Source: Gonatopus flavifemur (taxonomy: Eukaryota > Arthropoda > Insecta > Hymenoptera > Dryinidae). From it: a DNA stretch of 64,000 nucleotides. Below the pieces are notes generated by a model. It saw nothing but the letters and a program-made list of their open reading frames with translations, was not told the origin of the DNA and did not search any database. The translations under genes and the position numbers were made by a program. Of this stretch, positions 24,718-44,080 are shown piece by piece. Each line of letters begins with the position of its first letter. The stretch's first letter is position 1. Location: NCBI GenBank assembly GCA_018340375.1, contig JAFFJZ010000008.1:868001-932000 (forward strand), given 5' to 3'.

Positions 24718-25119
24718 ATCATCATCATCATCATCATGAAGTAATCAGTCTTATGATTGATTTGATAAAATCCTCCAACCCTGCCTATTATCCGCGCAAC
24801 GCTCAATTTCTAAATATCTACGATAGCCCTTATCTTGTATAATTTGCTTCATATAACTTAATCTAAGTCTACCTTCACAAGTTTTACCATCCATTTTTTC
24901 TTCCAATATTGTTTTCAACAAACTATCATGCCTCAACATGTGTCCTATCAGATTACTTCTTCTAACGACATGTTTCAGAAGATTTCTTCTCATATTTACC
25001 TTCTCGAGTAGTTCTTCATTTTTTATTCTCTCTATCCATTTTATCCTGAGCAGCCTCCTACAACACCACATTTCAAAAGCTTCAAGTCTTCGTTGGACAG
25101 TTTTTCCAATTGAGTTTTC
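24718..25119 (-). mobile_element. 5'-truncated RTE retrotransposon fragment
   Basis: On the minus strand it encodes the C-terminal part of the same reverse transcriptase protein found at 39018-39893. Shared blocks include RRLEAFEMWC, LLKTILE and ending DNRQGWR.LSNQS. Its 3' end on the plus strand is a (TCA)n tail at 24718-24736. The 11-base flanks CCTGAGAATTC (24707-24717) and CCTGGGAATTC (25120-25130) match at 10 of 11 positions, giving a target-site duplication. Only the last part of the element is present, as usual for target-primed reverse transcription. Confidence 0.8.
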
Positions 25120-29962: not shown

Positions 29963-29973
29963 ATATATTATCC

Positions 29974-30736
29974 ACGAGTAGTACTGAGTTAGAAAATATT
30001 CTCAACACTATGAGAACAATATTATTGGAAAACTATTGTATGAATATAAATAAAGACAAAACAAAATTCATGATGTGTACAGCAGCGAAAACAGCTAGAA
30101 GAACGAAAATCAAAATAGATACCCAGACAATTGAACAGGTGAAAGAATTCAAATATCTAGGAAGCATAATTACAGAAAACAGCAAAAGCGAAAGAGATAT
30201 AAGAGCAAGAATAGCACAAGGGAAACAGGCTTTTTACCAAAAGAAACAGTTATTATGCTCGAAAGATATAAGCTTGGAAGTAAGGAAGAAATTCTTGAAA
30301 AGTTACGTTTGGAGCACAGTATTATATAGTTGCGAAACTTGGATAATGGGGAAAACTGATCAACGAAGACTTGAAGCTTTTGAAATGTGGTGTTATAGGA
30401 GGATGCTCAGAATAAAATGGATAGACAAAGTCAAAAATGAAGAAGTACTCGAACAGATAAATGAAAAAAGAAATCTTTTGAAACACATCGTGAAAAGGAG
30501 AAGCAATCTTATAGAACACACATTACGGCATGAGAGTTTATTGAAAACAATATTGAAAGGGAAAATGGATGGTAAAACTGGTAAAGGTAGACCTAGATCA
30601 AGTTATATGAAGCAAATCGTACAAGACAAGGGATGTAGTAGATATGTATAAATTAAACGTTTGGTGGATAATAGACAGGGGTGGAGGGTTTCATCAAACC
30701 AGTCGTAAGACTGATTACTTCATGATGATGATGATG
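29974..30736 (+). mobile_element. 5'-truncated RTE retrotransposon copy
   Basis: It begins inside the reverse transcriptase gene (ACGAGTAGTACTGAGTTAG, matching about 39749 on the minus strand of the longer copy). It ends in (ATG)n at about 30721-30736. The 11-base sequence ATATATTATCC flanks it exactly (29963-29973 and 30737-30747). It is close to the 38996-42343 element throughout. Confidence 0.9.
30010..30651 (+). pseudogene. RTE reverse transcriptase, C-terminal remnant
   Basis: The 213-codon frame corresponds to the C-terminal two thirds of the protein at 39018-39893. It lacks the catalytic FADD block, which lies upstream of the truncation. It stops early at 30649-30651 (TAA), where the longer copy has a glutamate codon, after the shared KGCSRYV. 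The remaining codons (reading DNRQGWRVSSNQS) follow after the stop, so this is a point nonsense mutation and not a different C-terminus. Confidence 0.85.
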
Positions 30737-37235: not shown

Positions 37236-37989
37236 GTCGCAGTGGAGTTGTAGCAAAATTACACTGACAAGGTTGTCAATAACAAATCAAAAACAATTCA
37301 ATTACAAGTCTGAAAAGCTTATGACAAGCTTACACTGAGAGAAAATATAGGAGACCCGTATGGAAATATTTCGCTGAAAAATGTCTGTGAAACTATGAAA
37401 AATCTCTGAAAAAAAATGAAAAAATTCTGAGAAACTCTGACAAATTCTGAGAATCTCTGAAATTTTGATGAGAAATCTAATATTTTTGGGACATTCTTCA
37501 CAGACTTTTTTCAGACTTTTTTCAGAGTTTCTCAGAGTTTTTTCATACTCTTTCAGAGAAATAGTAACGAAATTGCACTCTGAAAAAACTCTGACAAAAC
37601 TCTAATAAATTGTTGACATTTTTCTGATCATTGAAAAATCCTGAAATTCAATAAATACATTCATATGCCGTATTCAAATATCATGTGTGAAAAAGTGTTT
37701 GAAAATTTTTTAATTTTTTTCTAAAAGTCAGAAAAATGTTAGCAATCCATCAGAGTTTTATCAGAGTTTTTTCAGAGTGCAATTTCGTTACTATTTCTCT
37801 GAAAAAGTATGAAAAAACTCTGAAAAAAGTCTGAAAAAAGTCTGTAAAGAATGTCCCAAAAATATTAGATTTCTCATCAAAATTTCAGAGATTCTCAGAG
37901 TTTGTCAGAGTTTCTCAGAGTTTTTTCATTTTTTTCAGAGATTTTTCATAGTTTTGCAGACGTTTTTCAGCGAAATATTTCCGTACGAG

Positions 37990-38391
37990 GAGCCAACCGC
38001 ATATGAGTTTGGATACGGCGAATCTCGCCACGTGGTTGACTCAATTGAATACACGCAGAAAACAGATGTGTTGAGAAGTCCCATAACTTATTGAGGATCA
38101 GCGCCAGTCTCTGACAAATGGAGTTTTCACTTGAATTTACTTTTAAAAAGTCCCATAATTAGACATATTTCTACAAGAAATTATGGTACTTTTGAAGCTA
38201 TATTCAGGTAAACAATTTTATTCATCACAGACTGGCGCTGATCCTCAATAAATTATGGGAATTTTTGAAATATATTTTTCTGCGTGTATCGTTTGAAATG
38301 ACCGAATGAGCATTTACTTCAATCGATATTGAGTTGAGTCAACCGTGCGGCGAAATTCGCCGTATCCAAACTCATATGCGGTTGGCTCTAC
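37990..38391. mobile_element. Second-level foldback (AGCCAACCGC ends)
   Basis: AGCCAACCGCATATGAGTTT followed by GGATACGGCGAAT is mirrored by its complement ending GCGGTTGGCT at 38391. Removing this segment rejoins the right arm of the 37333-38409 element. Its own arms are separated by the element at 38052-38286. Confidence 0.65.
38052..38286. mobile_element. Third-level TA-flanked foldback
   Basis: The ends CACGCAGAAAA and TTTTCTGCGTG pair, with TA on both sides (38050-38051 and 38287-38288). Inner pairs include TTATTGAGGATCAGCGCCAG and CTGGCGCTGATCCTCAATAA. It lies within the second-level foldback. Confidence 0.75.
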
Positions 38392-38421: not shown

Positions 38422-38995
38422 GGCTTGAGTATATTTGACACAGTCTCATTCGAACACTCTATGAATTGTCATTATTTGTTCCTCGTATTTCATTTTTACA
38501 TTCTACGAACGTATCTACGTATTGTTCATATATATTTGAGCATATTACCGTAGTGTGGATCGTTCGATAAAACGAACTGATAACACAGGACAACAATGAA
38601 GGTCTTTTTTCTCTGATGTTGTCTGTTACTACTTGGGCATTGGCAGGAATATGAAATCTTTCGAAACTGACATAACGGAAATTCATTTGAAACATACCTG
38701 TGCCGTGTGGGTTATTTATATTAATTTTCTATGAATTTCTGCCAATCCACATTGAAAATGCAGAGTTTGAAGACATAAAAAAGGTAGTAAGATCAAGGGA
38801 TTTTCCACAAGTTACACACTTTTTCGTGCGAAAAAAAATAAGCGTTTTATATTCATTCTTTCTCACTTGAAAATCATAAACCACCGATCATCCTTATGAT
38901 GAAAAAAACTAGACGATAATCAAGAGTGTAATTTGAACGTAACACATCGGAGGGTAAAAGAAATTATGATGATTCAATAAAAAAAAGGTACAACT
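38422..38995. repeat. 574-bp direct repeat, left copy (long target duplication)
   Basis: It is identical to 42344-42918 except for one substitution (near 38868 versus 42780) and one base in an A run. It starts GGCTTGAGTATATTTGACAC and ends GGTACAACT, exactly at the 3' end of the RTE element. Its first 100 bases are a piece of the CCCAAGCAGCA MITE family. Part of it (GACATAACGGAAATTCATTT) has a diverged copy at 43587-43650. The 78-codon minus-strand frame in it is not a recognisable gene. Confidence 0.85.
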
Positions 38996-39017
38996 CATCA
39001 TCATGGAGTAATCAGTC

Positions 39018-39833
39018 TTACGACTGGTTTGATGAAACCCTCCACCCCTGTCTATTATCCGCCAAACGTTTAATTTCTACATATCTACTACATCCCTTGT
39101 CTTGTACGATTTGCTTCATATAACTTGCTCTAGGTCTACCTTTACCAGTTTTACCATTCATTTTCCCTTCCAATATTGTTTTCAATAAACTCTCATGCCG
39201 TAATGTGTGTCCTATAAGATTGCTTCTCCTTTTCACGATGTGTTTCAAAAGATTTCTTTCTTCATTTATCTGCTCGAGTACTTCTTCATTTTTGACTTTG
39301 TCTATCCATTTTATTCTGAGCATCCTCCTATAACACCACATTTCAAAAGCTTCAAGTCTTCGTTGATCAGTTTTCCCCATTGTCCAAGTTTCGCAACCAT
39401 ATAATGCTGTGCTCCAAACGTAACTTTTCAAGAATTTCTTCCTTACTTCCAAGCTTATATTTTTTGAGCATAATAACTGTCTCTTTTGATAAAAAGCCTG
39501 TTTCCCTTGTGCTATTCTTGCTCTTATATCTCTTTCGCTTTTGCCGTTCTCTGTAATTATGCTTCCTAGATATTTGAATTCTTTCACCTGTTCAATTGCC
39601 TCGGTATCTATTTTGATTCTCGTTCTTCTAGATGTTTTCGCTGCTGTACACATCATGAATTTTGTTTTGTCTTTATTTATATTCATACAATAGTTTTCCA
39701 ATAATATTGTTCTCATGGTGTTGAGAATATTTTCTAACTCAGTACTACTCGTGGCCAATATAGCTATGTCATCCGCGAATCTCAACATACTTATATTTTC
39801 TCCTGAATCTGTAATTTCGATTGAATTTCCTCC
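39018..39833 (-). pseudogene. RTE reverse transcriptase, FADD block to C-terminus
   Basis: It contains LRFADDIAIL with the two catalytic aspartates, then NINKDKTKFM, EFKYLGSIIT and ETWTMGKTDQRRLEAFEMWC. The C-terminal GRPRASYMKQI and DNRQGWRVSSNQS are shared with both shorter copies in the window. The frame is open from the frame change to the stop at 39018. Positions 39834-39893 upstream in this frame are out-of-frame reading and not real protein. Confidence 0.88.
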
Positions 39834-40300
39834 TTCACTTCGTTCATTGCTTCTTCTATATATAAATTGAACATCAGTGGCGATAATGAGCATCCTTGTC
39901 TCACCCCTCTTCTTATTTGTGCTTCCCCTTCCTGACCCTCTATGTCTATTATTGCACTTTGATTCTTATATAATTCGTATATTATTCTTCTATCTTTATA
40001 ATTTATTCCCACCTTCTTCAGGATCGCAAACATCTTCTCCCAGTCCACATTATCGAAAGCCTTTTGTATATCTACAAAACCTATGTACACAGATTTCTTC
40101 AGCGCTATCCTTTTCTCTATTACTGCCCTGAGTGCTAAGATTGCTTCTCGCGTTCCCCTATTTTTTCTAAAACCAAACTGATCCTCTGCCAATCTACTCT
40201 CTATTTTATTTTCCATCCTCCTGTATATAATTTTGGTCAGTATTTTCGAAGCATGTGAAGTTAAACTGATCGTTCTGTAGTTCTCGCATTTGTCTGCCCC
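39791..40300 (-). pseudogene. RTE reverse transcriptase, palm and fingers part
   Basis: It reads NYRTISLTSHASKI, then AEDQFGFRKNRGTREAILAL, the catalytic FVDIQKAFDNVDW, and RQGCSLSPLMFNLYIEEAM. These are conserved reverse transcriptase blocks. The frame is lost near 39833 (in a GGAGGAAAT context), just before the FADD block. Confidence 0.85.
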
Positions 40301-41446
40301 TTGTTTTTCGGGATAGCGACAATTTTATTCTTTTGGAAATCTTCCGGTACTTCTCCTTTTTCGTACATATCTCTAATCAATTCAAACAGTGCGTCGCGAG
40401 TTCCTTCACTGGAGGCTTTTATAAGGTCCGCACTTATGCCATCTATGCCTGGCGCTTTATTATTTTTCAATTCTTTCAAAGCCTTGTCGAATTCTGATCT
40501 CAATATCGAATCTCCCAATTCTTCCTCATCTACATCCTCCTCCTTCTCTAATAGTGCTATATCATCGTTTCCTCTATACAAGTCTTCCAAATGATTGATC
40601 CACTGTTCTATTTTCTCTTCCGTTTTTATCAATTGTCGTCCTAGAGAGTTTCTAATCTTATTGCTTCTAGATTTCATTTGTCCGAAAAATCTTTTAATAA
40701 TTCTATATGCTTCATCTATTTTTCCTAAATGCAATCTTATTTCTATTTCCTGACATTTCTCTTCTAACCACTGTTCTTTTGCTTTCCTTGATTCTCTTAT
40801 TATTTTATTCCTCAATGATTTGTATCGTTGCTGGCCTTCTTGGCTATCATTATTCTTGTATTTTCTTCTTTCATTTATCAATTCTAAAATTTCTCCCGTT
40901 ATCCATGGGTTTTTAGCTTCTACTCCATCATTCTTCAAAATCTTATCCGCACATTCTCTTATATTCTCCTTCATCTTTGTCCATCTACACTCTATTCCCA
41001 AGTCTTTCTCTTTTTGATCTCCCAATTTTTCATCCAACATTTTCTCGTATGCCTCATGTGTTTGTTTTTGCTTGAGGTTCTTCAAATTCCATCTTTTCTG
41101 CATTTTCCTTTTCTTCTTCAGAGATTTGAATTTCAGAGAACATTTCATCATCAACATATTATGATCACTATCTATATCTGCACCGGGATAAGTTTTACAG
41201 TTTTTCACTTGGTTTCTAAATCTTTGTTTCACTAATATGTAATCAATTTGGTATCTTGCTGTATCTCCTGGCATTTTCCAAGTGTAGATTCTTCTTGGAT
41301 GATTTTCGAATAAAGTGTTTGTGATAACCATCTTATGATTTTCACAAAATTCGACTAAACGTTGTCCTCTATCGTTCCTCCTCCCTAACGCGAAATCTCC
41401 TATAATGTTGTCCTCTTTTCCTTGTCCTACTACCGCATTCCAATCC
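40261..41446 (-). pseudogene. RTE endonuclease C-terminus, linker and RT start
   Basis: The frame opens at WNAVVGQGKEDN just after the upstream frame change. It passes FENHPRRIYTWK and the catalytic SDHNMLMMK of the endonuclease, then a charged linker, then NNKAPGIDGISADLIK and PEDFQKNKIVAIPKNKG at the start of the reverse transcriptase. It loses frame near 40300, where an A run appears one base short, ahead of the block NYRTISLTSHASKILTK. Confidence 0.85.
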
Positions 41447-41455
41447 CCATCACTA

Positions 41456-41998
41456 TCAAATTCTCTTCTCCTTCACATATTCTATCACTTCTTCTATATC
41501 TTCGTACGTTTTTTCAATATCTTCCTCCGAATATGCAGATGTGGGCATGTATACTTGGACTATGACTGTGTCTACCGGTTTTGTTCTGATTCTAACCATC
41601 ATCACACGTTCATTATGTTGCAAATAATTTTCTATTCTATTTCCTACTCTTTTATGCATTACAATTCCTACACCTGCTTGACCGTTCTTTGATCCTGTAT
41701 GAATTATTCTATAATCCCCACTCCAGAAATCGCCCTCTTGTGGCCATCTCATTTCGCTAATCCCCATTACGTCTATATTCATCCTATTCATTTCTAATTT
41801 CAAATTTTCTAATTTTCCCGCTTGCCTCAGTGATCTAACATTCCACGCTCCGACTCGAAGAATGTTGTTTCTTTTCCCTATCCTATTCTTCGGTTTTCGT
41901 TCCTTGCTGATGAAGCTTCCTCGAGCAGCCTCCACCCGGAGATCCGAACGGGAGACTAGTTTACCTCCGGAATATTTTACTCGAGAGAGCACCATCAT
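41456..41998 (-). pseudogene. RTE endonuclease domain, N-terminal part
   Basis: The 180-codon frame begins MMVLSRVKYSGGKL and shows endonuclease/exonuclease/phosphatase landmarks: GAWNVRSL near residue 50, the catalytic-glutamate block SEMRW near 80, GVGIVMHKRVG near 108, and VYMPTSAYSEEDIE near 150. The frame ends at EKRI because of a frame change near 41460-41475. A second frame change at about 41447, where GDWNA should be read, moves into the next segment. Its role would be nicking target DNA for target-primed reverse transcription. Confidence 0.85.
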
Positions 41999-42343
41999 GT
42001 ATTTATTAATTTGTTTGTTTGTTTTTGTTACATAATATTCCAGGTTAGGAAAAAGGTTTCATTTCCTCGGGAAGTATTGAAACATGTCAAGGAAGGTAGT
42101 TTCCCCTTGCTTTCCTTCCGTTTGATTTTGCCGATGTTTCTGGCATTAGGATGATTTCGTTTCTCTCAGTTTGTATTCTTTCTCTTGAGTAGTTTATTCC
42201 ACTCAAAAAAAAAGATCCAACTCTGAGATACTTATCCTCCCCACCACGTAAAGGAAGCAGATACTACCAGGGATGGATAAAAAGGATATCAAGGACAGGT
42301 ATCATGAATATCCCCCTGGAAGACCCGCAATCATCCACGGGGA

Positions 42344-42918
42344 GGCTTGAGTATATTTGACACAGTCTCATTCGAACACTCTATGAATTGTCATTATTTG
42401 TTCCTCGTATTTCATTTTTACATTCTACGAACGTATCTACGTATTGTTCATATATATTTGAGCATATTACCGTAGTGTGGATCGTTCGATAAAACGAACT
42501 GATAACACAGGACAACAATGAAGGTCTTTTTTCTCTGATGTTGTCTGTTACTACTTGGGCATTGGCAGGAATATGAAATCTTTCGAAACTGACATAACGG
42601 AAATTCATTTGAAACATACCTGTGCCGTGTGGGTTATTTATATTAATTTTCTATGAATTTCTGCCAATCCACATTGAAAATGCAGAGTTTGAAGACATAA
42701 AAAAGGTAGTAAGATCAAGGGATTTTCCACAAGTTACACACTTTTTCGTGCGAAAAAAAATAAGCGTTTTATATTCATTATTTCTCACTTGAAAATCATA
42801 AACCACCGATCATCCTTATGATGAAAAAAACTAGACGATAATCAAGAGTGTAATTTGAACGTAACACATCGGAGGGTAAAAGAAATTATGATGATTCAAT
42901 AAAAAAAAAGGTACAACT
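42344..42918. repeat. 575-bp direct repeat, right copy
   Basis: This is the right-hand copy of the 38422-38995 repeat, lying exactly at the 5' end of the RTE element (minus orientation). After it the sequence continues as GCCGTTAAACAATTT, which is the presumed original flank. It differs from the left copy at one base and by one A in a homopolymer. Confidence 0.85.
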
Positions 42919-44080
42919 GCCGTTAAACAATTTAAACAGTTTTGAGAAGTCAGGCGAAGTTAATCCGATATCCCATAATCGAGTTTCCTTTAATCCCTGC
43001 CTAAATTTTTTGCTCTCGCCGTGGAAGATCGTAAACCATCTAAGGGATTCTTGTACAATAAACCTCCTGCGTTTGGTTTTTCTATGAGTGATGCGTTTTC
43101 GCAAAAAAAATTCAATTAACCTGAAAGAATGGTAACCTTTAGTTCCAATTTTGGTCTAACGAATGTAGGGTTATAAACTTCAGTTCAAACTATGAATAAA
43201 TTCGAATATTCCGGAGGCAACGAGAGGCATTGAAAGAAAAGTGATGAAAACCCATATCTGGTGATATAGTTGATGGTAAGAAATCATTTTCATAATGTGT
43301 TTTTACATCTTAATTTTTACTGTTTTGACAAGTCGTTTTGTTCAAATGGCTGCCATGGATGAAATGTTTTATTGATAATGGACAAATGTAATACATTACG
43401 ATATGATGATCGTACTTCCCCACACACCATCCTGATCCTGATGTATTCATGACAAATTCTTTAGGACTTCATCATGGAATTGTTTAAAAATCCCCGTTAT
43501 GACAGTTCAGAATAAGTTCTTCGTGAATCTTTGGTATTCAAAAAGAATACTTGGAAAATTTTTAACAATTCAGTATAAATTTTTTTTGGAACTGACGTAA
43601 CGGGAGTTCATTCGAAACATGATTATGCTGTGTGAGTCAACTTCTTATAAATGATGGTCATACTGATTTACCTAAAAATATTATTGATGGAACGTGCGGT
43701 TACAATTGCACTGTAGATCTCATGGAAAATCTAATACACAGTCGTTTTGGATTTACATTGTTTCCAGAGTTATTTCACAGCAACAATAAACCCATTTACT
43801 TCAGCAACATTGTACATATAACATTGGTACCAATGTAAATTTTACTCCAATTGCATTTAAGTGAGCAGGTATGTCAAATTAACCACAAACAGTGCAGAAT
43901 CTACATCGAACCTCTTCCGTGCAAGTAGCACCAAATGTTCTAATATAAGAACGTCCTGACTTAATGCTATTCTGATATATGATGAATCATTCTACAATTC
44001 CCCATTAGTCATTTTGAGAATATGAATACTGATATGAATATTAGACGTTCTAAGCATATTAGTGTTGAACTGTTTCAAAC
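42919..44080. other. Non-coding interval
   Basis: No supportable gene. The minus frame at 42886-43104 has no recognisable domain. 43587-43650 matches part of the flanking direct repeat (GGAACTGACGTAACGGGAGT against GAAACTGACATAACGGAAAT), so this is a dispersed sequence. Confidence 0.4.

Follow-up and report, generated by a model that had tools for sequence, protein, structure and literature searches.

A direct repeat of 574/575 bp around an RTE-like retrotransposon of Gonatopus flavifemur, with a second long case in the same genome

The insertion and its flanking repeat

The window, i.e. the whole stretch of 64,000 nucleotides of Gonatopus flavifemur DNA that was analysed, contains a full-length RTE-like element on the minus strand. 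Both of its ends are abutted, to within 2 bp, by the arms of a long direct repeat. The features at the locus are as follows (window positions):

37990..38388: neighbouring inverted-repeat element with 62-nt arms, ending 33 bp outside the duplication
38422..38995, plus strand: left arm of the long direct repeat, adjoining the element 3' end (copy of the target)
38426..38539, plus strand: fragment of a dispersed (MITE-like) repeat within the left arm, also present in the right arm
38996..42343, minus strand: RTE-like non-LTR retrotransposon, full length, 3348 bp, sense 5' end right and 3' end left, reading frame in four pieces
38996..39004, minus strand: element 3' tail, reading (ATG)3 in sense
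42344..42918, plus strand: right arm of the long direct repeat, adjoining the element 5' end (copy of the target)
42344..42345: GG, reading CC in element sense; these 2 bp overlap at the 5' junction and are common to the target and to other full-length 5' ends

Pairwise alignment of the arms (38422-38995, 574 bp, and 42344-42918, 575 bp) revealed one substitution (C/A) and one extra A, which sits in an A-run close to the repeat end. This is exactly the difference that a previous sequence-only reading of this DNA had stated. Likeness between the arms ceases immediately beyond both edges: no similarity exists between the left flank ...TTTTATTT and the RTE sequence ...CCACGGGGA, nor on the other side between the RTE sequence CATCATC... 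and the right flank GCCGTTAAAC.... According to the same reading the repeat ends exactly at the element ends. The edges do coincide, but 2 bp at the 5' junction belong to both partners. In all 39 other full-length 5' ends (29/29 and 10/10 in two sets) CC directly precedes TCCCCGTGG, so the GG/CC at the window 5' junction is common to element and target, and the target duplication amounts to about 572 bp, not 574/575 bp. On the 3' side, the final A of the repeat may also derive from the ATG tail.

A search of the 636-Mb assembly (402 contigs) placed the full 574-bp repeat only at its two sites in the window among the 43 matches listed, and no third full-length copy occurred among the 40 scored of 810 candidates. 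The other 41 of the 43 matches are confined to query positions 4-124 and represent a dispersed repeat, in accordance with the earlier description of the left part of the repeat as a MITE fragment. The boundary of this dispersed repeat may or may not have set the left edge of the duplication: three of six aligned copies start at 38425-38428, the others at 38312, 38400 and 38409, with gaps. Immediately left of the insertion, nested inverted-repeat (MITE-like) elements extend over 37357-38388.

Since the structure rests on one assembly, a false joining of two haplotypes or reads was considered. Such an artefact is very improbable: the edges match the element ends on both sides with no short duplication left, which is unexpected from a false join, and a second case was found on a different contig (C341, see below).

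The element family and its ordinary insertions

Endonuclease and reverse-transcriptase fragments are carried by the window element, whose own endonuclease match of 21 bits stays below the Pfam cut-off of 24.5. PF03372 was recognised in L009 (E 2e-6) and PF00078 in L100 (E 2.4e-39), that is, in two partly read copies and not in one whole protein. Protein relatives of about 980-1000 aa with PF03372, PF14529 and PF00078 were present among the 120 of 225 matches listed; those named there come from psyllids, aphids and a moth, and several are titled 'craniofacial development protein 2' by the source. This label often marks RTE-like elements. Family copies and relatives together exhibit the RTE-clade architecture, an APE-type endonuclease followed by a reverse transcriptase in about 1000 aa. 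Further, the 3' tail is a simple repeat instead of poly(A): ATG repeats close the window copy and those other copies that were read through to the 3' end. A split target signature of the RTE type, with a T|A junction preceded at about 10 nt by an A/T stretch, was found as well and is weak as a classifier. Architecture, tail and target signature suggest membership of the RTE clade, and the element is called RTE-like here.

The 5' 600 bp of the element gave 1974 candidates at first look (1980 in a second search), of which 40 were scored at 99-100% identity, and the 3' 500 bp gave 1162 candidates with 40 scored at 100% (rounded); the window copy is included in both sets of 40. With such near-identity of the 40 best matches and so many candidates, the family is young and of high copy number. 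The copies sampled were picked by likeness to the window copy and represent the part of the family nearest to it.

In all, 75 other copies (29 + 10 + 13 + 9 + 14) were examined, leaving aside the window copy itself, L093 and L097 as duplicates of earlier loci, and one row repeating L084. Both ends could be resolved in 60; the remaining 15 were dropped because an end lay away from its predicted place or the locus was cut. Plain short duplications of 10-13 bp were present in 46 of the 60, a short duplication plus filler in two, and one duplication was long (L034, below). The 48 short duplications comprise 10 bp in 5, 11 bp in 25, 12 bp in 12, 13 bp in 5 and 15 bp in 1 copy. In the other 11 (L018, L020, L027, L070, L125, L127, L089, L094, L096, L101 and L108) the script accepted no duplication of at least 8 bp. 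Other readings of these gave 11 bp for L070, 8 bp plus filler by eye for L127, and only 6-bp or gapped candidates for L018, L020 and L027. In 13 + 9 copies the 5' flank measured only about 200 bp, and long duplications were searched for separately in these; in the remaining copies lacking a duplication the search covered repeats no longer than the available sequence. Within the window, the sequence-only reading had assigned 11-bp duplications to two other RTE copies. The one at 29964-30730 has a clean 11 bp (ATATATTATCC); that at 24729-25112 is imperfect, with about 10 bp by eye.

The long case among the 60 is L034/L063 (contig C341, about position 1862219; L034:1206-1500), a locus that had not been picked for a long duplication. 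Its direct repeat shows 292/292 identical bases with exact ends, one at the element 3' tail and the other at the CC 5' end; about 290 bases are target and about 2 perhaps come from the tail. The 5' junction contains no common bases, as the duplication ends ...CTCACT and the next target base is G. In both the window copy and L034 the direct repeat starts and stops at the element ends and takes the place of the ordinary short duplication. Long duplications thus recur in this family as a rare outcome, with 1 in 60 resolved, unselected copies (95% interval 0.04-9%) and the window copy as an additional, selected case.

Reading frames vary within the family. That of the window element (38996-42343) falls into four overlapping pieces, with the first break at about element position 885, a break also seen in L033 and L037. 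Over the 5' 2.1 kb, five of 13 assessed copies (of 29) read through (L009, L011, L016, L017 and L020) and eight do not. L034 belongs to the eight, so both copies with long duplications are frame-broken, which may be chance. In L116, two element matches omit positions 2371-2418 and overlap by 17 bases in the locus, corresponding to an internal deletion of about 50-65 bp.

Origin of the long duplication

The two arms of the repeat differ at 2 positions in about 1149 bp. Positions private to the window element, i.e. those where its base recurs in no more than 10% of the copies compared, number 4 in 3348 bp (4/2080 in the 5' part and 0/1268 in the 3' part). At the rate of the arms about 6 private positions would be expected, and with 4 observed, repeat and insertion can share one age, the numbers being small. 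A common origin of duplication and insertion in the same event is supported by this similar divergence, by the missing ordinary 11-bp duplication, by edges lying at the element ends within 2 bp, and by the likewise built L034. An earlier tandem duplication of 572 bp, with the element landing exactly at the unit boundary, would give a product that looks alike. We regard it as barely credible, since the element would have had to hit one exact position of about 570 without its usual 11-bp duplication, and to do so again at L034, and since the divergence of the arms is close to that of the element, as if both had begun together.

For the window copy, the most probable explanation is target-primed reverse transcription that was finished from a second-strand break about 572 nt away. 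The endonuclease would nick the plus strand of the window at the right repeat edge (after ...GGTACAACT), and the 3' end so freed would serve as primer for copying the element RNA into cDNA, beginning at the ATG-repeat tail. The opposite strand, normally cut about 11 nt off, would here offer its 3' end from a break about 572 nt off, at the left repeat edge; second-strand synthesis from this distant break and fill-in of both overhangs would leave 572 bp duplicated. The steps are given in their presumed order, and the second break may have been a host nick, an end from replication or repair, or a late endonuclease cut. The 572-bp segment was presumably single-copy in the ancestral state. Several points speak against this explanation: an opening of 572 nt goes beyond a simple staggered cut, long cases are rare, the target signature is weak, and the second-break site does not resemble it (below). 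The sequence-only reading had noted that such a duplication requires two nicks separated by more than 500 bases, which is right for the target-duplication route; distances of this order are reported for human L1, above all in repair-deficient cells (PMC5223499).

The proposed first nick was compared with those of ordinary insertions, for which a clean duplication was obtained by script in 36 of 44 copies. These show an A/T box 13-10 nt before the duplication (A or T in 34, 36, 35 and 28 of 36 at the successive positions) and a T|A tendency at its start, with T at -1 in 19/36 and A as the first duplication base in 21/36. The corresponding site of the window copy is:

42918..42931, minus strand: presumed first-nick site; in sense, ATTG occupies the positions 13-10 nt ahead of the duplication, whose first base is A, in partial agreement with the weak family signature

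First-nick scores are 2.2 for the window copy and 2.6 for L034, compared to a leave-one-out median of 2.9 for ordinary copies and a background median of 0.8. Both putative sites lie within the ordinary range by score, though the motif is weak: the value of the window copy is attained by 26% of random positions and that of L034 by 20%, and only 13/36 ordinary copies, and neither long case, exceed the 90th percentile of the background.

The second break of the window copy was also considered as an endonuclease site on the other strand. This is unsupported, as the site scores -1.0, a value reached by 73% of random positions. A second break without signature fits a break not chosen by the endonuclease; yet ordinary second cuts are motif-poor too, with little beyond A or G at the next base (31/36).

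A different route to the same structure is a template switch, in which the cDNA 3' end (...GGGGAGG, plus strand) pairs via GG with target sequence 572 nt back, on the sister or on the same duplex, and copies forward to rejoin the right flank by microhomology-mediated or break-induced replication. The GG common to target and element at the 5' junction would suit it, and 5' filler in L028, L098 and L127 (the last by eye) indicates that 5' joining in this family can be untidy. However, a 2-bp match is often expected by chance, and GG priming fits the window copy but not L034, whose 5' junction has no common bases. We consider this route unlikely; its product would otherwise be identical, so that sequence alone cannot tell it from a distant second nick. 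The earlier proposal of either a long target duplication or a duplication or template switch coupled to the insertion is thus upheld as to the common event, the two routes not being separable by sequence. The filler itself, about 11-21 nt in these three copies, lies between the short duplication and the element 5' end.

Foldback DNA was rejected as a cause of the distant break. The L034 duplication holds an inverted repeat with 44-nt arms, and the inverted-repeat element next to the window copy lies 33 bp off, yet no clear association emerged: an inverted repeat reaches within 600 bp upstream at 8 of 39 sites, L034 included (the 39 comprise L068 and L078, with unresolved 3' ends).

With a finish from a distant second-strand break as the preferred reading, the window copy represents a rare, extended form of a landing step that is already known, and L034 shows that it does not stand alone in this genome. 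A broader proposal, that the RTE family in this host regularly completes about 1-3% of its insertions from a second-strand break hundreds of bases off, is put forward tentatively and with some doubt. If it were true, each round of RTE activity would also leave the germ line with new local segmental duplications, 0.3-0.6 kb long, and surveys with length limits would have missed them. The formation of the second-strand break by LINEs is still poorly understood. In a family with nearly 2000 5'-end candidates, the 40 best of them 99-100% identical over 600 bp, a single assembly could supply a set of long cases, whose second-break sites could then be set against those of 11-bp cases. Such a collection would show the extent of LINE-caused local duplication in a natural germ line.

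Comparison with known systems

Among the papers listed by our literature searches no RTE duplication of about 572 bp was seen, which does not prove that none exists. In C. elegans Rte-1, the copy described first is said to have a flanking repeat of about 200 bp, and the duplication of rotifer R9 is reportedly 126 bp and fixed for the family.

Ordinary insertions of the RTE clade (PMC2887409, PMC1291365, PMC13295347) share with the present element a protein with endonuclease and reverse transcriptase. Lepidopteran RTEs have a trinucleotide 3' tail, TGA repeats in HzRTE-1 compared to ATG repeats here, and duplications of 10-20 bp (PMC2887409), and Schistosoma SR3 has duplications of 10-12 bp (PMC1291365), in contrast to the approximately 572 bp described here. 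The family signature resembles that of squamate Bov-B, a T|A nick preceded, at a distance of about one helical turn, by an A/T stretch (Tn-TA; PMC13295347). The Bov-B scan took only duplications of 10-49 bp (PMC13295347) and a study of primate L1 and Alu only those of 5-30 bp (PMC2912911), so long duplications fall outside both by design. Rotifer R9, by the title under which it is cited (PMC3636483, PMC2861651, PMC7943196), is likewise a non-LTR element with an exceptionally long target duplication and, unlike the present family, specific for rDNA.

A close likeness in structure is given by human L1 in cultured cells, where a LINE can be flanked by direct repeats that measure hundreds of bp or even kb, beside a usual median of 12-14 bp (PMC5223499, PMC5717806). 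In NER-deficient cells the median L1 duplication was 1495 bp (range 5 bp to 5.3 kb), compared to 14 bp in complemented cells (range 2 bp to 1.6 kb; 3/9 above 100 bp). In HeLa, duplications above 100 bp reportedly never make up more than 10% of events (PMC5223499). Ranges of 1-3450 bp and 1-29,902 bp were given for CSA-complemented and CSA-deficient cells, respectively, with medians of 12-13 bp (PMC5717806). Suggested primers of the long L1 duplications are remote nicks or ends that become exposed during replication or repair (PMC5223499). The present case differs from those of human L1 in being found in an assembled genome, in an RTE-like family, and with a complete 5' end.
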